Positions 923 to 29,572 of a stretch of DNA of 41,794 bases are shown one piece after another. The notes beneath the pieces were generated by a model. The model saw only the letters and a list, made by a program, of their open reading frames with translations. It was not told the DNA's origin and did no database searches. The first letter of the stretch is position 1. Every line of letters starts with the position of its first letter. Made by a program: the position numbers and the translations under genes. Origin of the DNA: Halalkalicoccus subterraneus (GTDB lineage: Archaea > Halobacteriota > Halobacteria > Halobacteriales > Halalkalicoccaceae); the NCBI RefSeq assembly GCF_003697815.1, contig NZ_RDQG01000026.1, positions 1-41,794 on the forward strand, in the 5' to 3' direction.

Positions 923-1105
923 ATGGCCGACGAGAGCACCTCCGACGAGAACGAACCCCGACTGGCCCACGGCACCGAACCCGACACCGCGCTCTGCCAG
1001 CGCTGTGGGAGCGAGTTCGAATGGACCGAAGACAGCTGTCCGGACTGTGGCTGGGAGAAATCCGAGTGGGTCGACGGGGGGCGCTACGGGCTCGGCGAGG
1101 CCTGA
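923..1105 (+). CDS. Zinc-ribbon microprotein
   Basis: This is a 60-residue acidic protein with two CxxC knuckles (CQRCG and CPDCGW) 14 residues apart, enough for one zinc-ribbon fold. Such small single-ribbon proteins are abundant in haloarchaea, mostly of unknown role, and probably act in protein or nucleic-acid contacts. The ATG at 923 follows a TATA-like box by 27 bases, so the message is probably leaderless. It converges with the DUF59 gene and the two stop codons are four bases apart. The specific function is unknown. Confidence 0.75.
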   Translation: MADESTSDENEPRLAHGTEPDTALCQRCGSEFEWTEDSCPDCGWEKSEWVDGGRYGLGEA

Positions 1106-1109
1106 CCGC

Positions 1110-1859
1110 TCAGTCGCTCGGGGAGCCGATCCGCGACGCGCCGAGGTTCTCACAGACGTGGCCCTGGCCGGTCATGTTCGTCGCTGCGAGCCGGCCCCTA
1201 CTATGGACCGTCTCGAACTCGCTCGGTTGGATGGCCTCGCCCTCGGGCGTAACGAACAGCCGTTTTTCCGCTTCGTCGGCGATCCCGGTCGCGAGCGCCT
1301 TCTCGAGGTAACGTTCGAGCGACTCGGCCTCGACGCAGACCGAGAGATCGTGGTTCAGCCGGATCGTCGCACGGCTCGATTCGGGATCGATTGCGAGGTC
1401 CTCCCGGCGGAGTCGGGCGATCTGTTCGGGTTGTAGGCCCCCATCCAACAGGGACTCCGTCGCCCGGTACTGGCGTGCAACGCGCGCTTTCCCGTCGAGT
1501 TCGCGGCGAACCGATTCGACCTCGCCGTCGGCGTCCTCGAACGCCTCCCCGAACGCCAGGTCTCCATTCACTCCCTCGTTGATCTCCGCGGCGTGCATGT
1601 GGTCCCGAAGGCGTATTCTCGCCGTCGAGACCGCAGGATGAGCGGCCATGGCGTCCCGGGCATCGGCCATCATCATCCACGCGAACGCGGGCGAACACCA
1701 CGCCGTCGGCAGCGTGAACGCGACCTCGACCGACCCGCCGTCGATCTCGATGTCCTCGATGTAGTCGAGTTCGACGATCGAGCGGTCGAGTTCGGGATCA
1801 GTTACCACTTCGAGACGCTCCTCGATCGTCTCGGGACTGATTCGGTGGGTTTCGCTCAT
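1110..1859 (-). CDS. DUF59/MIP18-type metal-sulfur cluster assembly protein with C-terminal extension
   Basis: The first 100 or so residues form a DUF59 (MIP18/PaaD/SufT-like) domain with the family ITDPELDRSIVELDYI-like start and the conserved LPTAWCSPAFAW segment, whose cysteine is the expected cluster or metal contact. The 249-residue length exceeds the usual 100-residue DUF59 protein. The extra part includes a segment (ARQYRATESLLDGGL) recalling the DUF59 proteins encoded in actinobacterial propane monooxygenase operons. It starts one base after the amidohydrolase stop codon, so the two are co-transcribed and probably translationally coupled. The likely role is helping to load a metal centre of a partner enzyme. 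The partner is not visible in the window, so this is inference. Confidence 0.82.
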   Translation of the reverse strand: MSETHRISPETIEERLEVVTDPELDRSIVELDYIEDIEIDGGSVEVAFTLPTAWCSPAFAWMMMADARDAMAAHPAVSTARIRLRDHMHAAEINEGVNGDLAFGEAFEDADGEVESVRRELDGKARVARQYRATESLLDGGLQPEQIARLRREDLAIDPESSRATIRLNHDLSVCVEAESLERYLEKALATGIADEAEKRLFVTPEGEAIQPSEFETVHSRGRLAATNMTGQGHVCENLGASRIGSPSD

Positions 1860-1860
1860 G

Positions 1861-2922
1861 TCAGTCGTCCGCTACTGCGGTTCCTTCCCCGTACTGCTCT
1901 GCAAGCCCGAACTCCTCGCTGACCCCGTCGTCGCGGAGGATCTCCTTCTGGCGCTCGATGTCGATGTCGTAGAGCTTGGCGGCGTTTTCGCCCATGATCT
2001 TCTTTTTGACCTCCAGATCGAGTTCGACGCCGTACTCCTCGCGTTGCTCGGGCGTCATCTCGGCCTCCATCACCGCCTCGATGAGCCACTCGGGCTCCCA
2101 GATGGCGTAGTCGCTGCCGAAGAGGATCCGGTCCTCCCCGAGCCAGAAGAGCAGTTCGCCCATGATCTCGCCGAACTTTCTGGGTCTGCTTTCGGCCAGC
2201 GGCGCGGCGACCGCGAGCCCGCCGTAGACGTTCGGCTCCTGGGCGGCGATCCAGCAGAAGTCGTCGAGTCGGGGCAGGCCGACGTGTTCGACGACGAAGT
2301 TGAGTTCCGGGAACGACGTCGCCGCGTCGTCGACGTCGGCTACGTCGAAGGCGTCGCGGTTCAGCGGCCTAATCGTCGGGCCCTTGTGGGCGTGGATGTT
2401 CTTGATGCCGAGTTCGGCACACTTCTCGAGGTACTCGAAGCTCTCTTCGGAATCGAGACGCCACCCCTTCGAGTCGCCGTTCCATTCTGCGGTGTAGACC
2501 TTCGCGCCCCGGACGTCGAACTCCTCGGCCTGGCGTTCGAGTTCCTTCAGGCCTGCCTCGCCCTCGCGCGGATCGAACCGGCCGTTGACGATGAACCGGC
2601 TCGGGTGGTCCTCGGCGAGTTCCCCACACCGGTCGATCGTGTTGAACCCCTCCGTGTAGAACTCGTTGAGGTAGGTCGGCTGGAGGATCCCCATGTCGGC
2701 GTGGCCGTCGCCGAACATGTCCCGAACCATCCGCTCCTTGTCGTACTTGCGGTACTCCTCCAGGCTCCACTGGCGCTCCTCGGGTGTGAACCCCGTGTGA
2801 TAGTCGTAGAAACAGCGAATGAACTGCTCGCCGCCTTCGTGGCTGATGTTGTCCTTGCTCGCGTCCCACCAGTGGACGTGCCCGTCGAGCACGAACACGT
2901 CCTCTCCCTCGTACTGATACAT
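1861..2922 (-). CDS. Amidohydrolase family protein (TIM-barrel metal hydrolase, prm-operon type)
   Basis: This 353-residue protein has the amidohydrolase-2 pattern. His15 and His17 (DGHVHWWD) lie at the first strand, His177/His179 (NIHAHKGP) and His213 (VEHVGLP) follow, and Asp271 (LFGSDYAIWEP) is the expected catalytic metal ligand. Segments such as FGDGHADMGILQPTYLNEFY, KVYTAEWNGDSKGW and NVYGGL closely recall the amidohydrolase encoded next to propane monooxygenase genes in Gordonia, Rhodococcus and Mycobacterium, whose biochemical role is unresolved. It heads a minus-strand pair with the DUF59 gene and is divergent from the alcohol dehydrogenase. An AT-rich TATA region centred 28 bases before the ATG supports this start. 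The substrate is unknown. Confidence 0.88.
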   Translation of the reverse strand: MYQYEGEDVFVLDGHVHWWDASKDNISHEGGEQFIRCFYDYHTGFTPEERQWSLEEYRKYDKERMVRDMFGDGHADMGILQPTYLNEFYTEGFNTIDRCGELAEDHPSRFIVNGRFDPREGEAGLKELERQAEEFDVRGAKVYTAEWNGDSKGWRLDSEESFEYLEKCAELGIKNIHAHKGPTIRPLNRDAFDVADVDDAATSFPELNFVVEHVGLPRLDDFCWIAAQEPNVYGGLAVAAPLAESRPRKFGEIMGELLFWLGEDRILFGSDYAIWEPEWLIEAVMEAEMTPEQREEYGVELDLEVKKKIMGENAAKLYDIDIERQKEILRDDGVSEEFGLAEQYGEGTAVADD

Positions 2923-2944
2923 TCCGTGAGTGGCTAAGGATCCA

Positions 2945-2955
2945 TTATAATTATA
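2945..2955 (-). promoter_or_regulatory. TATA box for amidohydrolase-DUF59 operon
   Basis: A run of A/T (TTATAATTATA) is centred 28 bases upstream of the amidohydrolase ATG on the minus strand. This is the standard distance for a leaderless haloarchaeal message. Confidence 0.6.
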
Positions 2956-2958
2956 GTT

Positions 2959-2996
2959 TCGTACACCGGCGGTTCGACCCGAATCGCCTCGTACAC
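2959..2996. promoter_or_regulatory. Compound operator candidate in divergent promoter
   Basis: The divergent spacer between the amidohydrolase and alcohol dehydrogenase genes holds a near-perfect dyad: GGCGGTTCG at 2968-2976 and CGAATCGCC at 2980-2988, a 3-base spacer and one mismatch. It is bracketed by two direct copies of TCGTACAC (2959-2966 and 2989-2996) whose starts are 30 bases apart, close to three helical turns. It lies just upstream of the minus-strand TATA box and 40-77 bases before the ADH start, a suitable place for one regulator to act on both genes. No regulator gene is adjacent. The arrangement is seen directly; the regulatory role is inferred. Confidence 0.5.
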
Positions 2997-3035
2997 AATC
3001 TTTTTGGCGGTATCAGTCGAGTATCGAGCCGTATT

Positions 3036-4073
3036 ATGGACGCCGCGAGACTCCACGAGTACACCGAGGAGATGGGGGAGGCGCTCTCGATCGACGAGAT
3101 CGATCGGCCCACCCCTTCGAGATCGGACCACGTCGTCGTCGAGGTCGAGGGAGCGGGCTGGTGCCAGACGGACAACCACATCATCGAGGGGATGTGGACC
3201 GACTACGTCGAGCAGGACCTCCCGATGACGCTCGGCCACGAGAACGCCGGGGAAGTAGTAGAGATCGGCGGGGAGGTCTCGACCGTGGAGGTCGGCGACA
3301 AGGTGCTCTGTCACCCCCACGTGACCTGCGGGGAGTGTCGAGCCTGCCGGCTGGGCGAGGACATGCACTGCGAGAACGCGGCCTTCCCCGGGCTTAACAC
3401 CGACGGCGGGTTCGCGGAGTACCTGCTGACCTCCGAGCGCGCGACGATCACACTCGATTCGGTGGACCCAGTCGACATCGCGCCCCACGCCGACGCCGGG
3501 ATCACCGCGTATCACGCGGTCAAGAAGGCGACCCCGAACCTCTTTCCGGGGAGTTATACGGTCGTGATCGGGATCGGTGGACTGGGTCACATCGGGCTCC
3601 AAGCGGTCGAAGCGATGAGCGCGACCACCACGATCGCCGTCGACCTCAAAGAGGAGGCACTGTCGCTTGCGGATCGGCTGGGCGCGGATCACACGATCAA
3701 CTCCGCCGACGAGGACGTCGCCGAGGCCGTCGAGGCGATCACCGACGGCGCGGGCGCAGAGCAGGTGCTCGACTTCGTCGGCGCGGACCAGACGACGGCC
3801 CTGGCTCCCGACATCGTCGCGCCGGGTGGTGATCACCACGTCATCGGCTACGGCGGGCACATCCACGAGCCATCGCAGGCGCTGGTCAACGGCGAGTTCT
3901 CGTACGTCGGGAACATCGTCGGGAAGTACACCGAACTGCAGGAGCTCGTCGCGCTGGTCGAGGGGGGCGAGATGCACCTCGAGACGTCCGAGTACTCCCT
4001 AGATGAGATCAACGACGTGGCCGAGGCGCTCGAACACAACGAGATCGAGGGCCGGGCCGTCATCGTTCCCTGA
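3036..4073 (+). CDS. Zinc-dependent NAD(P) alcohol dehydrogenase (medium-chain family)
   Basis: This 345-residue MDR dehydrogenase oxidises an alcohol to an aldehyde or ketone. Catalytic zinc ligands Cys43 (GWCQTD) and His68-Glu69 (LGHEN) and the structural-zinc cysteines 98, 101, 104 and 112 are all present. The Rossmann loop GIGGLGHIG is at 179-187, and Asp203 at the end of the second strand favours NAD over NADP. The segments CENAAFPGLNTDGGFAEYL and DAGITAYHAVKKA match the alcohol dehydrogenase encoded in actinobacterial propane monooxygenase operons, which oxidises 2-propanol or similar alcohols. It is divergent from the amidohydrolase and DUF59 genes that accompany it in those operons. 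A role in alcohol or ketone metabolism is firm; a link to alkane oxidation is inference. Confidence 0.92.
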   Translation: MDAARLHEYTEEMGEALSIDEIDRPTPSRSDHVVVEVEGAGWCQTDNHIIEGMWTDYVEQDLPMTLGHENAGEVVEIGGEVSTVEVGDKVLCHPHVTCGECRACRLGEDMHCENAAFPGLNTDGGFAEYLLTSERATITLDSVDPVDIAPHADAGITAYHAVKKATPNLFPGSYTVVIGIGGLGHIGLQAVEAMSATTTIAVDLKEEALSLADRLGADHTINSADEDVAEAVEAITDGAGAEQVLDFVGADQTTALAPDIVAPGGDHHVIGYGGHIHEPSQALVNGEFSYVGNIVGKYTELQELVALVEGGEMHLETSEYSLDEINDVAEALEHNEIEGRAVIVP

Positions 4074-23297: not shown

Positions 23298-25073
23298 ATG
23301 GGAGATAATACCAATCTCGATAGGACGCGCAAGCTGAGCCGACGACGGTTCTTGGGTGGGGTCGCGGCGGGTGCGGCGCTGCCGCTGGCCACCCAGCCCG
23401 TGCTCGGGCAGGGCGAGATCTGTGGGGCACCCGGCGTTGACTGTGGGGCGGTCGCCGAGGGCGCGGATGGAATGGTCGTCTCGGTCAGCCCCGCCGCGAG
23501 CGAGGTCGGCGCGCAGGTGCTTCGCGACGGTGGCAACGCCGTCGACGCCGCGGTTGCGGTCCAGTTCGCGCTCAACGTCACCCAACCCCACTCCTCGGGA
23601 ATCGGCGGCGGCGGGTTCATGCTGTATTACGACGCCGAGAAGGGGGACGTCGAGATCGTCAACAGCCGCGAGCGCGCGCCGGCCGGGGCGGATCCGGAGA
23701 TGTTCCTTGAGGACGGAGAGCCGATCCCCTTCGACGAGCGCCACACCCACGGGGACGCCGTTGGGGTACCGGGGACCGCGAGCGGACTCCAGCGTGCGGC
23801 CACACGCTACGGGTCGCGCCCCATCGGGGAGCTGATCGACCCCGCGATCGCCCTCGCGGAGGGGGCCGAGGTCGACGGCGTCCTGGCCGAGGAGATCGCG
23901 GCCAACGAGTGGAAGTTCAATGACGCCGCCCGCGAGGTGTTCCTCGACGAGGAGGGCGAACCGCTCTCGGAGGGCGACACCCTCGAACAGCCGGACCTCG
24001 CCGACACCCTTCGACTGCTGCGCGATCGGGGGATCCGCGAGCTCTACGAGGGCGAGATCGCGGAGGCGCTCGCCGAGGCCGTTCAAGAGGAAGGCGGGAG
24101 CATGGAGTTTTCGGACCTCTGTCGCTACGAGGCCACCATCGACGAGCCCGTCGAGGGCTGCTATCGCGGTGCGGAGGTCTACTCGATGCCCCCGCCGAGT
24201 TCCGGCGGGCTGACCGTGATCCAGATCCTCAACCTGTTGGAGGGGTTCGATCTGGGGACGAACTACGACGTGCGCTCGGGCACGAAGTACCACCTGCTCG
24301 CCGAGGCGATGCGCTTGGCCTACGCGGATCGCGGCGAGTACATGGGTGATCCCGAGTTCGTCGACGTCCCCATGGAGGGGCTGCTCGATCCCGAGTACGT
24401 TTCCGAGCGCCGCGAACTGATCGGGCCCGACTCGCTCAACGCCGAGCCCCAGCCGGGCGACCCGTGGGCCTACCAGTCCGGCAACGCGGCCTCGATGACT
24501 CAAGAGACGCCCCGCGCGCTCGGGCACACGACCCACTTCACGGTCGCCGACTCCGAGGGTAATCTCGCCTCCTATACCACCACGATCGAACAGCTGTTCG
24601 GCTCGGGGATCATGGTCCCCGAGTACGGGTTCATGCTCAACAACGAGCTCACCGACTTCGACGCCGAACCCGGCGGCGCGAACCAGGTCCAACCGAACAA
24701 ACGGCCCCTGTCGAGCATGAGTCCGACGATCATGACTCGGGACGGCGAGCCCTTCATGACCGTCGGCTCACCGGGTGGACCGACGATCATCACGTCGGTC
24801 GCTCAAATGATCCTCCATCACCTCGAGTACGGTCTCGAGCCCATCGACGCGATCGATGAACCCAGCATCTACGCGCCCCAGTCGCCGGAGATCACCCTCT
24901 GGGAGGAGGCGATTCCCGAGGACGCCCGCGAGGAGGCCGCCACTCTCGGTAACGAGTGGAGCGACGAACCCGGTCCGATCGGCAACGTCAACGTGCTCAG
25001 GGCCGAGGACGGCTACGAGGGAGCGGCCGACCAGACCCGCGACGGGCTCGCGGTCGGTCTAGACGACGTCTGA
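23298..25073 (+). CDS. ggt: Gamma-glutamyltransferase, Tat-exported
   Basis: This 591-residue Ntn-hydrolase precursor transfers or hydrolyses gamma-glutamyl groups from glutathione, gamma-glutamylcysteine or similar compounds. A twin-arginine signal (SRRRFLGGVAAGAALPL) directs folded export. Substrate-binding Arg124 (NSRERAP), the SSMSPT pair near 472-473 and the GSPGG motif near 491 are intact. Autocleavage should expose Thr411 (GHTTHFTV) as nucleophile, giving a 40-kDa class large subunit and a 20-kDa class small subunit. Downstream lies a complete TAXI-TRAP importer with a shared promoter element, which suggests recovery of glutamate released outside the cell. Haloarchaea use gamma-glutamylcysteine as a thiol, so that is a possible substrate. 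Confidence 0.95.
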   Translation: MGDNTNLDRTRKLSRRRFLGGVAAGAALPLATQPVLGQGEICGAPGVDCGAVAEGADGMVVSVSPAASEVGAQVLRDGGNAVDAAVAVQFALNVTQPHSSGIGGGGFMLYYDAEKGDVEIVNSRERAPAGADPEMFLEDGEPIPFDERHTHGDAVGVPGTASGLQRAATRYGSRPIGELIDPAIALAEGAEVDGVLAEEIAANEWKFNDAAREVFLDEEGEPLSEGDTLEQPDLADTLRLLRDRGIRELYEGEIAEALAEAVQEEGGSMEFSDLCRYEATIDEPVEGCYRGAEVYSMPPPSSGGLTVIQILNLLEGFDLGTNYDVRSGTKYHLLAEAMRLAYADRGEYMGDPEFVDVPMEGLLDPEYVSERRELIGPDSLNAEPQPGDPWAYQSGNAASMTQETPRALGHTTHFTVADSEGNLASYTTTIEQLFGSGIMVPEYGFMLNNELTDFDAEPGGANQVQPNKRPLSSMSPTIMTRDGEPFMTVGSPGGPTIITSVAQMILHHLEYGLEPIDAIDEPSIYAPQSPEITLWEEAIPEDAREEAATLGNEWSDEPGPIGNVNVLRAEDGYEGAADQTRDGLAVGLDDV

Positions 25074-25176
25074 TCGGCTCCTCCCCGTGCCCGCCGGACG
25101 TTTCTGGAGAGAATCGATCGGACCTGACTAAGTTTCAATATATTATTCATTTTATATAACTAGTCGAACACGGTCG

Positions 25177-25196
25177 TATCCCGATACATATATATT
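25177..25196 (+). promoter_or_regulatory. Promoter of TAXI-TRAP operon with shared 10-mer
   Basis: TATCCCGATA (25177-25186) is followed directly by the TATA box ATATATATT (25188-25196), centred 27 bases before the ATG at 25219. The same 10-mer precedes ggt at 23232-23241. The 145-base spacer is strongly AT-rich at 25135-25160 as well and carries no gene. Confidence 0.5.
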
Positions 25197-25218
25197 GTGG
25201 CCGAAGTCAATAACATGT

Positions 25219-26313
25219 ATGTCGCGTGATATTGCGTCAGTGGATCGCCGTACGTTCCTGAAGGCCGCGGGTGCCACCGGGGTCATCGGGCTGGCCGGCT
25301 GTATCGGAGAGGAGCCCGAGAACGGCGAGGGAGGGAACGGCGGAAACGAGAGCGAAGAGCCCGGCGAGGGCGGGCAGAACGTCGTCTGGGACGCCGGCGG
25401 TACCGGCGGGACGTACTACCCGCTGTCGGGTGAGTTCAAGACGATCGTCGAGGACAACACGCCCCACGTCCTCCAGGTCCGTTCGACGGGTGCCAGCGTC
25501 GAGAACGTCGGGAGCCTCGCGAACGAGGACGCCGACTTCGCGCTGATCCAGAACGACATCGCCTACTTCGCGGCCAACGGGACGGGCCTCGAGGAGTTCG
25601 AGGGGTCCCCAGTCGAGAACCTCCTTGGGGTCGCGACGCTCTATCCCGAGACGATCCACATCATCACCCGCCCCGGCGCGAACATCGGATCGCTTCAGGA
25701 CATGGAGGGCGCGACCGTCAACACCGGCGACCTCGGGAGCGGAACGCAGGTGAACGCCCTCCAGATACTCGAGAGCGCCGGCCTCTCGCAGGACGACTTC
25801 GAGGAGCAGAACACCGGGTTCTCGCAGGCGGCCGATCAGCTGAGCGACAACGACATCGACGCCGCGTTCGTCGTCGGCGGCTGGCCGGTCGGCGCCGTCG
25901 AGGAGCTCGCGACCACCACCGACATCCAGATCCTCAACCTCGCTCAGGAGGACCGCCAGGCGGTCCTCGACAGCGCCGAGTGGTTCGCGGAGGACACGAT
26001 CCCGAGCGGCACCTACCAGGGGATCGACGAGGACGTCGATACCGTCTCCGTCCAGGCGATGATCGCCACCCACGAGGGCGTCGACGAGAGCCTCGTCCAG
26101 GACGTCACCTCCGCGATCTTCGACAACACCGACTCGCTCAACACGAAGGCGGACTTCATCTCGGCCGACAGCGCCCTCGATGGCATGTCGATCGATCTCC
26201 ACCCCGGCGCCCAGGCGTACTTCGACGAACAGGGCGGCAGCGGGAACGAAACCGGTGGCAACGAGAGCGACAACGCCAGCGACGAGAACGGAACGGACAA
26301 CGCCAGCGGGTAG
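25219..26313 (+). CDS. TAXI family TRAP transporter substrate-binding lipoprotein
   Basis: This 364-residue binding protein collects a solute outside the cell for the TRAP permease. The N-terminus has a Tat motif (DRRTFLKAAG) and lipobox (GLAGC), so it is membrane-anchored. Family marks are GGTGGTYYPLSGEF, RSTGASVENVGSLANEDADF and TVNTGDLGSGTQVNALQIL. The last 30 residues are a Gly/Asn/Ser/Asp-rich low-complexity tail. ATG at 25219 is chosen over an upstream frame because the TATA box lies 27 bases before it. Characterised TAXI proteins bind glutamate, glutamine or 2-oxoglutarate, which fits the neighbouring ggt; the actual ligand is not established here. Confidence 0.93.
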   Translation: MSRDIASVDRRTFLKAAGATGVIGLAGCIGEEPENGEGGNGGNESEEPGEGGQNVVWDAGGTGGTYYPLSGEFKTIVEDNTPHVLQVRSTGASVENVGSLANEDADFALIQNDIAYFAANGTGLEEFEGSPVENLLGVATLYPETIHIITRPGANIGSLQDMEGATVNTGDLGSGTQVNALQILESAGLSQDDFEEQNTGFSQAADQLSDNDIDAAFVVGGWPVGAVEELATTTDIQILNLAQEDRQAVLDSAEWFAEDTIPSGTYQGIDEDVDTVSVQAMIATHEGVDESLVQDVTSAIFDNTDSLNTKADFISADSALDGMSIDLHPGAQAYFDEQGGSGNETGGNESDNASDENGTDNASG

Positions 26314-26373
26314 CGAACTCGCAATCGGCACGGCGACGGCGTTTTCGTTTCGGAACCTCCCAGTACGACGAGT

Positions 26374-26883
26374 GTGAAACGACTCCAATCGCGTTCAACC
26401 GTTCGACTGTTAGTAGTGCTGACTCTCCTCCTTCTCGTCGTTTCGTTGGGCGTCGCGGCGAGCGTGTCGACCACCGAGCGCGTCCTCGTGGTGGCGACCG
26501 ATGATGGTAAGGTACTGCTTACCGAATCAGTCACCGATGACACCACGGTTCGACTCGAGTACACCCACAGCGTCGAGAAAACGCCCGTCGCCGACGTATA
26601 TTCCGTCGATGGAACGGTACTTCGAATGACGCACATGGAGTTCAACTCGTACGGTGCAGGCCTCCCCGCTACTGCTCCGGTCGAACGGGCGGCCGATGGC
26701 GAAAGCTACGTCTACGAACTGAATCGAACGTACGACCAAATCGTAGTGTCACCCGGAGAACGAGCCGGCCATCGCCTCGTAATCGACGGCGAAGAATACG
26801 ATCTCGTCGAACGATCCGACGGGCGATCGGTCTCGATTTACGTCACGGAACGCGAAACGCGAGTGATCGACGATGTCATCTAA
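26374..26883 (+). CDS. DUF1850 protein, TAXI-TRAP accessory
   Basis: This 169-residue protein has one N-terminal hydrophobic helix (residues 11-30, signal anchor) and a small extracytoplasmic domain with the DUF1850 signature RLEYTHSVEKTPVADVY and MEFNSYGAGLP. It starts with GTG at 26374. DUF1850 genes are commonly placed between the TAXI binding-protein gene and the fused TRAP permease gene, as here, and probably assist the transporter, though the mechanism is unknown. Its end overlaps the permease start by 11 bases, implying translational coupling. Base composition is slightly less G+C-rich than its neighbours. Confidence 0.88.
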   Translation: MKRLQSRSTVRLLVVLTLLLLVVSLGVAASVSTTERVLVVATDDGKVLLTESVTDDTTVRLEYTHSVEKTPVADVYSVDGTVLRMTHMEFNSYGAGLPATAPVERAADGESYVYELNRTYDQIVVSPGERAGHRLVIDGEEYDLVERSDGRSVSIYVTERETRVIDDVI

Positions 26884-29572
26884 TACGACCCCTGCCGACG
26901 AGGACGAATCGGGTCAAGAGGATCCGAACGAGATCTTACAGGAGATCGAGCGCAAACGATCCCTCCGCGGATGGGGTGCGATCGCCGTTGCGACCATCGG
27001 GATCGTCTTCTCGCTCTTTCAGGTCTGGATCGCGGCCCGCGGGTTCGTCTTCTACGTCCCGATTCCCTTCACCGGAACCGAATACGAGATCGCCGGGCTC
27101 CAGCAGCTCCAGATCAACGCGATCCACGTCGCGTTCGCGCTCGTGCTCGCATTCCTGATGTTTCCGGTGAGTTCGCGCGACGGGTTCGTCTTTCGAACTC
27201 TGTCACGCGTTGTCCCCGCCGCCCGCGACCGGCTTGGCGACGATCACGCCGTCACGTCGGCCCTCCGCCGGGTTCGTGGAGGTGTCCGCTGGGCCGCAGC
27301 GGATCCGGATCGCGACCGCATCACGCCCGTCGATTACGTGCTTATCGGTCTCGCGCTCCTCTCGCCGATCTACATGATCGGGCAGTTCGACGAGATCCGA
27401 CAGGCGCGCGTTCGGGGCCTCAGTATCGGTCGGCCGATCGACGAGGTGTACACGTTCCTTGAGGCACCCGTCGCGGCCGTCTCCGCGCTTGGATTCCCGC
27501 TCGACGAAACGTCGTATATGTTCATCGTGGGCGTCATTGGCATCCTGCTGGTACTGGAGGCGACGCGTCGGGCGCTGGGGTTCTTCCTCATGTCGCTGGT
27601 CTCACTGTTCATCGTCTACGCCCGCTGGGGCTACGTGATTCCGGGTGATGCGCCGCTGATTGGGACGCTCTCGATCGGCGGCGTTGCCTGGGACACGGTC
27701 GTCAGCTACCTCTGGTTCACCACCGAGGGGATCTACGGAATCCCAGTCATCGTGAGCGTTCGGTTCATCTACATCTTCATCCTTTTCGGGGCGTTCCTTG
27801 AGATGAGCGGGGCGGGCAAGTGGTTCATCGACCTCGCCTACGGGTTGACCGGCACCCGACAGGGCGGTCCGGCGAAGGCCAGCGTCGTCGCGAGCGGCTT
27901 CATGGGAATGCTCTCGGGGTCGTCGGTGGCCAACACCGTCACCACCGGTGCCTTCACGATCCCGCTGATGAAGCGTTCCGGCTACTCGCCGGAGTTCGCC
28001 GGCGCGGTCGAGTCCTCGGCGTCCTCGGGCGGGCAAGTGCTCCCGCCGGTGATGGGTGCCGCGGCGTTCCTGATCATCGAGTTCACCGGCACGCCGTACT
28101 CCGAGGTCATCATCGCCGCGACGCTGCCCGCCATCGCCTTCTTCTTCGGGATGTGGGTAATGGTCCACTTCGAGGCCGTCCGCCAGGACATCGGCGGGAT
28201 CGCCCGCTCGAACCTGGTCGACATCGGGACGCATCTGAAGTCTGGTTGGTTCTACGTCCTGCCGCTGGTGTTGTTGCTGTACTTCATCATCGGGGCACGC
28301 CTCTCGATCGCCCGTGCCGGCTGGTATACGATCATCGTCATCATCGCCCTGGTCGCGGTGCTCGCGGCGTACGACGAGCGAACCCGCGTGCCACTCGTCG
28401 GCTCGATCCTCGCGGTTTTCGGGATACAGGCAGTCTCCTACGCCGTCGTCGGTGGTAACGTCTACGACGCCCTCACGGGCGGTACGGGTGCGGGGCTGGC
28501 CCCAACCGCCGCCCTCGGGGCTGCCGTCGGCGATATGGGACTCATCATCGTTCTGATCAGCCTGCTGGTCATCCTCGCTCGACCGTCCATGAACGGGCCG
28601 CTGCTCGACCTCGATCCTTCGGTCGACGAGGCCGCCGAACGGATCGACGGGTCGATCGGCAACCGGCGGATCGCGACTTCCCAGCCGGGGCGGTTCGTCA
28701 CCTTCCTCCTTCGATCGCTGGATTCGGGTGCTCGCACCGCGACGACGGTCGTCATCGCGGTCGCTGCCGCAGGCGTGATCCCCGGCATCATCGGCGCAAC
28801 GGGGCTGGGACCGAACCTGAACGCGCTGATCATCTCGGTCAGCGGCGGATCGCTCCTCGTGCTGATGCTGCTTGCGGGGATCACTGCGATCATCCTGGGG
28901 ATGGGGATGCCGACGACGGTCATGTACGTCATCCTCGTCTCGATGCTCGGGCCGGCCCTGGAGGACTTCGGCGTCGCGATCCTCGCCGCGCACCTGTTCA
29001 TCCTCTACTTCGGACTGATGGCCGACGTCACGCCGCCGGTCGCGGTCGCGGCCTACGCCGCCGCCGGCATCGCGAAGGCCGACGAGTTCTCGACGGGCGT
29101 GACCGCGTTCATGCTCTCGCTCAACAAGATCCTCGTCCCCTTCGCGTTCGTCCTCTCGCCGGGGATCCTACTGCTTCGTACCACCGACGGCGAAGTCTCG
29201 ACCATTGGAACGGCCGATATCCTCGATCTCGGCTTCTTCGTCCCGGAGGTCGTGATCCCCATCGTCGGTATGTTCGCCGGCGTCTACGCGCTGGGTATCG
29301 GGATAATCGGCTACTACACCGAGGAAGTCTCCGACATCGACCGTACGCTGTTCTCGCTGAGTTCGATCGCGATGATGGCGCCCGGACTGGTGTTGCTGAC
29401 GATACAGGGGATCGGCCGCGCGATGGGCGTCTGGCTCGTGCTCGATACGATGACCCTCGACTTCGCGCTACGGGGAGCGGGTGCCGTCCTGCTAGTGGCG
29501 CTGATGTTTCGCAACCGTGGCGGCGTTGAGGAGGACGAACGGCCTACGGCAGGCACGACCAGCGCCGAGTAG
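26873..29572 (+). CDS. TRAP transporter fused permease (4TM/12TM)
   Basis: This 899-residue membrane protein joins the small DctQ-like and large DctM-like subunits typical of TAXI-TRAP systems, with around eighteen hydrophobic segments. The large subunit shows SGSSVANTVTTGAFTIPLM and GQVLPPVMGAAAFL, then a second repeat with ILGMGMPTTVMYVI and FGLMADVTPPVAVAAYAAAG. The cytoplasmic N-terminus is acidic and has a predicted short coiled segment (NEILQEIERKRSLRGW). A polar linker lies near residues 580-605. It uses the sodium gradient to import the solute supplied by the upstream binding protein. Confidence 0.95.
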   Translation: MSSNTTPADEDESGQEDPNEILQEIERKRSLRGWGAIAVATIGIVFSLFQVWIAARGFVFYVPIPFTGTEYEIAGLQQLQINAIHVAFALVLAFLMFPVSSRDGFVFRTLSRVVPAARDRLGDDHAVTSALRRVRGGVRWAAADPDRDRITPVDYVLIGLALLSPIYMIGQFDEIRQARVRGLSIGRPIDEVYTFLEAPVAAVSALGFPLDETSYMFIVGVIGILLVLEATRRALGFFLMSLVSLFIVYARWGYVIPGDAPLIGTLSIGGVAWDTVVSYLWFTTEGIYGIPVIVSVRFIYIFILFGAFLEMSGAGKWFIDLAYGLTGTRQGGPAKASVVASGFMGMLSGSSVANTVTTGAFTIPLMKRSGYSPEFAGAVESSASSGGQVLPPVMGAAAFLIIEFTGTPYSEVIIAATLPAIAFFFGMWVMVHFEAVRQDIGGIARSNLVDIGTHLKSGWFYVLPLVLLLYFIIGARLSIARAGWYTIIVIIALVAVLAAYDERTRVPLVGSILAVFGIQAVSYAVVGGNVYDALTGGTGAGLAPTAALGAAVGDMGLIIVLISLLVILARPSMNGPLLDLDPSVDEAAERIDGSIGNRRIATSQPGRFVTFLLRSLDSGARTATTVVIAVAAAGVIPGIIGATGLGPNLNALIISVSGGSLLVLMLLAGITAIILGMGMPTTVMYVILVSMLGPALEDFGVAILAAHLFILYFGLMADVTPPVAVAAYAAAGIAKADEFSTGVTAFMLSLNKILVPFAFVLSPGILLLRTTDGEVSTIGTADILDLGFFVPEVVIPIVGMFAGVYALGIGIIGYYTEEVSDIDRTLFSLSSIAMMAPGLVLLTIQGIGRAMGVWLVLDTMTLDFALRGAGAVLLVALMFRNRGGVEEDERPTAGTTSAE

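Follow-up and report, generated by a model that had tools for sequence, protein, structure and literature searches.

The AH-DUF59-ADH locus and its relation to prm/mim clusters

The window analyzed here is contig C26 (41,794 bp) of a 3.6-Mb assembly from the haloarchaeon Halalkalicoccus subterraneus, with an estimated completeness of 95%. It carries three genes that encode a DUF59-type protein, an amidohydrolase-family protein (AH) and an alcohol dehydrogenase (ADH). A sequence-only reading had placed this trio at 1110-4073 and likened it to the accessory genes of prm/mim monooxygenase clusters. All three open reading frames (ORFs) are present with the coordinates and strands that it gave, and each could be assigned to Pfam families. 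We found that the trio is a common haloarchaeal module, which is related to the prm/mim accessory genes and does not serve a prm/mim monooxygenase.

1110..1859, minus strand: DUF59-type protein, 249 aa (Pfam PF01883, 57 bits)
1861..2922, minus strand: Amidohydrolase_2-family TIM-barrel protein (AH), 353 aa (Pfam PF04909, 174 bits)
2923..3035, no strand: AH/ADH divergent intergenic region, 113 bp (from the sequence)
3036..4073, plus strand: medium-chain zinc alcohol dehydrogenase (ADH), NAD-type, 345 aa (Pfam PF08240/PF00107)

A single base separates the AH stop from the start of the DUF59 gene. Both promoters, for ADH and on the AH side, are assumed to lie in the intergenic region. This short divergent spacer is kept in 35 haloarchaeal loci and is strongly conserved within the genus.

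The prm/mim clusters encode group V soluble diiron monooxygenases (SDIMOs) in Rhodococcus, Mycobacterium, Gordonia, Paracoccus and Caballeronia. Genes for a metal-dependent hydrolase, a metal-sulfur cluster protein, an ADH and GroEL neighbor the actinobacterial prm cluster (PMC4428276), and similar accessory neighbors have been described for other group V clusters (PMC9213486) and one mim cluster (PMC7176365). We compared the window proteins with cluster members from Rhodococcus, Amycolatopsis, Paracoccus and Caballeronia and found identities of 54-58% for AH, 29-36% for the DUF59 protein and 45-48% for ADH. On plasmids of Paracoccus, Caballeronia, Aminobacter, Bradyrhizobium, Gemmobacter and Ponticoccus, the AH-DUF59 pair immediately follows the four monooxygenase genes or lies a short way downstream of them, accompanied by GroEL and often by ADH as well. 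Therefore, the identities and the shared neighborhoods show that the likeness seen in the sequence-only reading is genuine for all three genes. The prm/mim clusters and the haloarchaeal trio have in common an orthologous AH, a two-domain DUF59 protein, a related ADH, and a gene order in which AH is followed directly by the DUF59 gene. In contrast to the prm/mim clusters, the haloarchaeal locus lacks the hydroxylase, reductase, coupling protein, GroEL-like chaperonin and Fis regulator, its ADH gene is divergent rather than downstream, and its AH belongs to a deep clade of its own.

One bacterial mim/prm cluster looks internally deleted. On the Rhodococcus aetherivorans BW2 plasmid NZ_CP154794.1 (L031:5579-7937), approximately 490 aa of MimA continue into a truncated zinc dehydrogenase; mimB, C and D are gone, and the AH, DUF59, ADH and GroEL genes remain.

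Distribution in haloarchaea and searches for a monooxygenase

Of the 243 genomes examined from the order, 61 encode an AH orthologue, with at least 68% identity and a drop to 36% for the next matches; a phylum-wide search found such orthologues confined to this order. These 61 genomes, and no others of the 243, also encode the DUF59 protein (Fisher p 6e-59), and an ADH orthologue is present in 60 of them. The sequence-only reading had called the trio an unusual find in archaea and had named a lack of co-occurrence in other haloarchaea as a ground for rejecting it. The three genes do occur together, and the trio, present in 28 genera and about a quarter of the haloarchaea sampled, is far from unusual.

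ADH lies within 4 kb of the pair in 55 of the 61 carriers, and in 54 the order is divergent (ADH<- ->AH->DUF59). The AH and DUF59 genes overlap or are at most 11 bp apart in most of 43 haloarchaeal loci. This arrangement is far beyond chance. The set is also plasmid-borne in Halomicrococcus and Halorarius. A genome of the same genus (G057) retains the ADH-GSDH-M20-ACAD neighborhood, has other genes upstream of ADH and is missing AH-DUF59 as a unit, and in a genome of the same family (G065) the pair and ADH are ~2 Mb apart. Therefore, the absence as a unit, the split locus and the co-distribution together identify AH-DUF59 as the inseparable core of the trio. Two genomes contain apparently broken second copies in addition to an intact one: a DUF59 gene with an in-frame TGA (G060:C3:2410892-2411479) and an AH-DUF59 pair in which AH matches in two pieces (G155:C30:138737-140271).

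We searched the 243 genomes with MimA, the hydroxylase, and obtained no match in the window's own genome and none among the 61 carriers. The same query found hydroxylases of ~25-28% identity in two non-carriers (L125/L205 in G127 and L126/L206 in G215), which demonstrates that the search works. A search of the own genome with PF02332 gave no matches and its control was also silent, so the MimA search with its internal positive was used instead. Closer to the trio, neither MimA-D nor the Fis regulator was found within ~10 kb in the window and 42 haloarchaeal loci (~0.88 Mb), although the positive control was found. The only GroEL-type match in these loci was weak (22%, in L148). The haloarchaeal trio is thus stand-alone, as had been proposed from the sequence. 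Distant SDIMO hydroxylases are rare in the order, with 2 in 243 genomes, both of which lack the AH-DUF59 pair.

Neighbor clustering of 40 haloarchaeal loci revealed no recurrent third partner, and the genes that do recur beside the trio look like lineage synteny. One further ORF abuts the trio in the window:

923..1105, plus strand: 60-aa zinc-ribbon ORF, convergent, ending 4 bp from the DUF59 gene

This neighbor recurs in some genomes of the same genus (L002, L004 and L006) and is probably outside the module. Elsewhere in the window, at positions 23298-29572, a gamma-glutamyltranspeptidase gene precedes those for a TAXI-type solute-binding protein and a DctM-family TRAP permease, an arrangement suggestive of a group for import and peptide salvage.

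The AH-DUF59 pair in bacteria and its phylogeny

The bacterial relatives considered were the top 80 of at least 588 when ordered by similarity to Thermomicrobium, and sampling of archaea from beyond the window's phylum was minimal. AH and DUF59 genes were codirectional and no more than 200 bp apart in 91 of the 91 bacterial loci where both were found. Among the bacterial loci examined, 26 have the pair and no SDIMO genes nearby. Thirteen of the corresponding genomes had no MimA match, three Acidiphilium genomes had MimA at another locus, and the matches in others were distant (24-30%) or fragmentary. Of the 26 loci, three were judged as plasmid records only, one of them with a distant match. 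Neighbor clustering of the 26 loci, with 30 neighbors scanned, again revealed no recurrent third partner.

The SDIMO-free sets of Thermomicrobium, Thermoflexus, Poribacteria, Chloroflexus, Thermogemmatispora and Bacillota contain the same AH-DUF59(-ADH) genes as the haloarchaeal set, at loci without a monooxygenase and mostly in genomes where none was detected. They differ from it in that ADH is codirectional, the regulators and neighbors are others, and DUF59 comes first in some. The usual operon is split in two in Acidiphilium, where AH-DUF59-ADH (L065, L066 and L077, in G418, G419 and G423) lies apart from a MimA gene whose product is 85-87% identical to Caballeronia MimA.

We built an AH tree from 65 sequences and rooted it on paralogues. 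All haloarchaeal AHs form one clade (100/99), which falls outside all bacterial AHs sampled (98/90 with the paralogue root). This position indicates that the haloarchaeal AH was not recently acquired from any prm/mim operon sampled. The SDIMO-linked AHs require at least 4-5 state changes, and constraining them to a single clade was rejected (p-AU 1.2e-6); such counts alone do not separate gain from loss of the SDIMO link. In a quick tree of ADHs, the window ADH falls into a haloarchaeal clade that mixes pair-bearing and pair-less genomes, with the Aeropyrum ADH and bacterial cluster ADHs as the next relatives. By this placement, the ADH of the trio appears to be an ordinary haloarchaeal ADH that is also found without the pair. 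The sequence-only reading had raised the prospect that trees would place each protein with unrelated housekeeping haloarchaeal clades; AH is not such a housekeeping protein, whereas the mixed clade of the ADH comes closer to that picture.

Together, the lack of MimA in the haloarchaeal carriers and in 13 bacterial genomes and the topology of the AH tree show that AH-DUF59 is a portable unit with no requirement for the monooxygenase. Because the carriers have no such enzyme, the haloarchaeal set must fulfill a separate function.

Protein features and possible function

AH satisfies the description of a PF04909 protein, with a TIM barrel, an HxH motif, two further His residues and an Asp. Of the metal ligands, H15, H179, H213 and D271 are present in 184 of 184 sequences, H17 in 182 and H177 in 178. 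On a plasmid of Peribacillus sp. R9-11 (L033), the second His of HxH is replaced by Ala, a change seen in 2 of the 184 sequences, and a DJ-1/PfpI gene follows the pair. A sequence search found no solved structure of AH. Its AlphaFold2 model (pLDDT 90.9) is nearest to the uncharacterized TIM-barrel protein 3irs (Z 26.4) and is also near the dihydroxybenzoate decarboxylases and ACMSD (Z 19-23). These PF04909 enzymes share the fold and the HxH/H/H/D ligands with AH at an identity of just 13-21%. Thus, in its modeled fold and its ligands, AH resembles an ACMSD/decarboxylase-type metal-dependent enzyme.

The DUF59 protein is not a bare DUF59 domain and carries a second domain at residues about 110-245 (AlphaFold2 pLDDT 92.8). 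The N-terminal domain has the fold of CIAO2B/SufT-type DUF59 proteins (Z 12.5 for CIAO2B). The C-terminal domain matches the tyrosine recombinases Cre and XerA/XerD with Z 8-9 (9.3 for Cre; Foldseek XerA E 0.009, prob 0.99), the recombinase-like fold spanning residues about 120-231. Pfam did not recognize this domain, and fold and profile comparison were needed: hhalign against integrases assigned the C-terminal domain a probability of 91% (P 1e-6), compared with 0.1% for the N-terminal domain used as a control. The domain is also found in family members at loci L031-L166. The first catalytic Arg of the tyrosine recombinases is replaced throughout the family, mostly by T, D, S or E and by Q in the window protein, and therefore the domain is at most an inactive derivative. 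Among 162 family sequences, Cys55 of the first domain and Cys236 of the second are present in all 162, and His87 and Arg243 in 161. The window protein shares its N-terminal fold and a DPE...PTxxC motif with the PaaD/SufT/CIAO2 proteins. It differs from them by the extra recombinase-like domain with its invariant Cys236, and it reaches only 31.1 bits against the haloarchaeal PaaD model NF041868 (cut-off 180), over the DUF59 region only.

ADH has the features of a medium-chain zinc ADH, with C43/H68 at the catalytic zinc and Cys 98, 101, 104 and 112 at the structural zinc. Its closest solved relative is the Aeropyrum pernix ADH (PDB 1h2b, 340 bits).

A mim-bearing actinobacterium offers a link to metabolism: its Adh1 and amidohydrolase-like protein reach high abundance on acetone and on 2-hydroxyisobutyrate, and acetol oxidation has been proposed for Adh1 of the mim cluster (PMC7176365). 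The literature searched, largely outside subscription journals, describes the prm/mim accessory genes and gives no function for AH or the DUF59 protein and no account of the haloarchaeal set. A role of the trio in the metabolism of short secondary alcohols and ketones is likely. This corresponds to the distinct alcohol/ketone pathway that survives of the two options in the sequence-only reading.

The mechanism that we favor, in which we have roughly even confidence, takes AH-DUF59 to be an inseparable metalloprotein unit that needs no SDIMO and has a zinc secondary-alcohol dehydrogenase as its usual partner. We infer the substrates, the AH reaction, the metal loading and the direction of the pathway as follows. 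ADH would use NAD to oxidize a short secondary alcohol or hydroxyketone, in a reaction of the 2-propanol-to-acetone or acetol-to-methylglyoxal type, a step suggested by family knowledge and the mim clusters. AH would then use its metal-dependent, ACMSD-like site to act on the carbonyl product or on a carboxylated derivative of it. The DUF59 protein may load or maintain the metal center of AH or ADH by means of Cys55 (CIAO2/SufT-type) and Cys236. In prm/mim bacteria the unit would come downstream of the monooxygenase, which supplies the alcohol or ketone, and haloarchaea would obtain the substrate from another source. A bolder form of this idea, which we hold only tentatively, sees AH-DUF59 as a metalloenzyme of two proteins that has not been described before, in which the DUF59-recombinase-like fusion is devoted to loading the metal. 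Such an enzyme would catalyze a step so far missing from C3 secondary alcohol/ketone metabolism in both archaea and bacteria, and it would have been recruited secondarily beside propane monooxygenases.

Several points weigh against the favored mechanism. No substrate or activity for AH was found in the same literature, and the assignment to C3 substrates is borrowed from the prm/mim bacteria. Besides a VOC/glyoxalase-like gene, there is no recurrent third gene to fix the pathway. ADH orthologues also occur in 53 haloarchaeal genomes without the pair, and in several SDIMO-free bacterial loci the pair has no ADH match nearby; therefore, ADH is a frequent and not an obligate partner.

The pair might instead assist a soluble diiron propane/acetone monooxygenase whose genes lie at another site in the genome, the other option of the sequence-only reading. 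The separate AH-DUF59-ADH and MimA loci of the three Acidiphilium genomes set a precedent, and such a gene could be missing from an assembly that is 95% complete. However, none of the 61 carriers has a MimA match, even though the same search found ~27% relatives in two non-carriers, and the surroundings of the haloarchaeal trios contain no MimA-D or Fis gene. At the sensitivity used, this reading is refuted for haloarchaea, and we consider it extremely improbable. The lack of SDIMOs in the carriers also argues against a second proposal, namely that the pair is a metallocenter maturation factor for another enzyme (the diiron monooxygenase in bacteria, an iron enzyme such as the PaaABC epoxidase in haloarchaea), with AH as a chaperone-like protein or scaffold and not a catabolic enzyme. 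DUF59 domains do belong to the Fe-S assembly/CIAO2/PaaD group, and PaaA/PaaC-type diiron proteins are encoded in this genome and in 147 of 243 haloarchaea. PaaA was tried as a partner of the pair, but it is present in 43 of the 61 carriers and absent from 18, and is thus not clearly co-distributed (Fisher p 0.07). The DUF59 protein also falls far short of the PaaD cut-off, and AH retains the full set of catalytic ligands, which would be needless in a scaffold. We regard a maturation role as unlikely.

Detoxification, by which the pair would remove methylglyoxal or other reactive carbonyls arising from ADH or general metabolism rather than support growth on alcohols, seems quite unlikely as well. 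A VOC/glyoxalase-like gene is near the pair in at least 11 bacterial loci, and two of these loci (L037 and L105) have no adjacent SDIMO; this recurrence may also fit a methylglyoxal branch of the favored mechanism. The DJ-1/PfpI gene of Peribacillus points the same way. Yet in most cases the VOC gene lies several kb from the pair and at an SDIMO-linked locus, and we saw neither a VOC/glyoxalase-like nor a DJ-1/PfpI gene next to the trios of haloarchaea.

The AH and DUF59 proteins of propane/acetone monooxygenase operons are annotated without function in the literature searched and are easily mistaken for monooxygenase helpers. The archaea and bacteria that keep the pair, and in which no such monooxygenase was found, therefore provide a clean, oxygenase-free route to its function. 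Because the pair exists independently in archaea and several bacterial phyla, this function is directly testable. If the pair does perform a ketone or hydroxyketone step, then a gap in the degradation of short-chain alkanes and acetone would be closed and a C3 pathway would be added to the haloarchaea.

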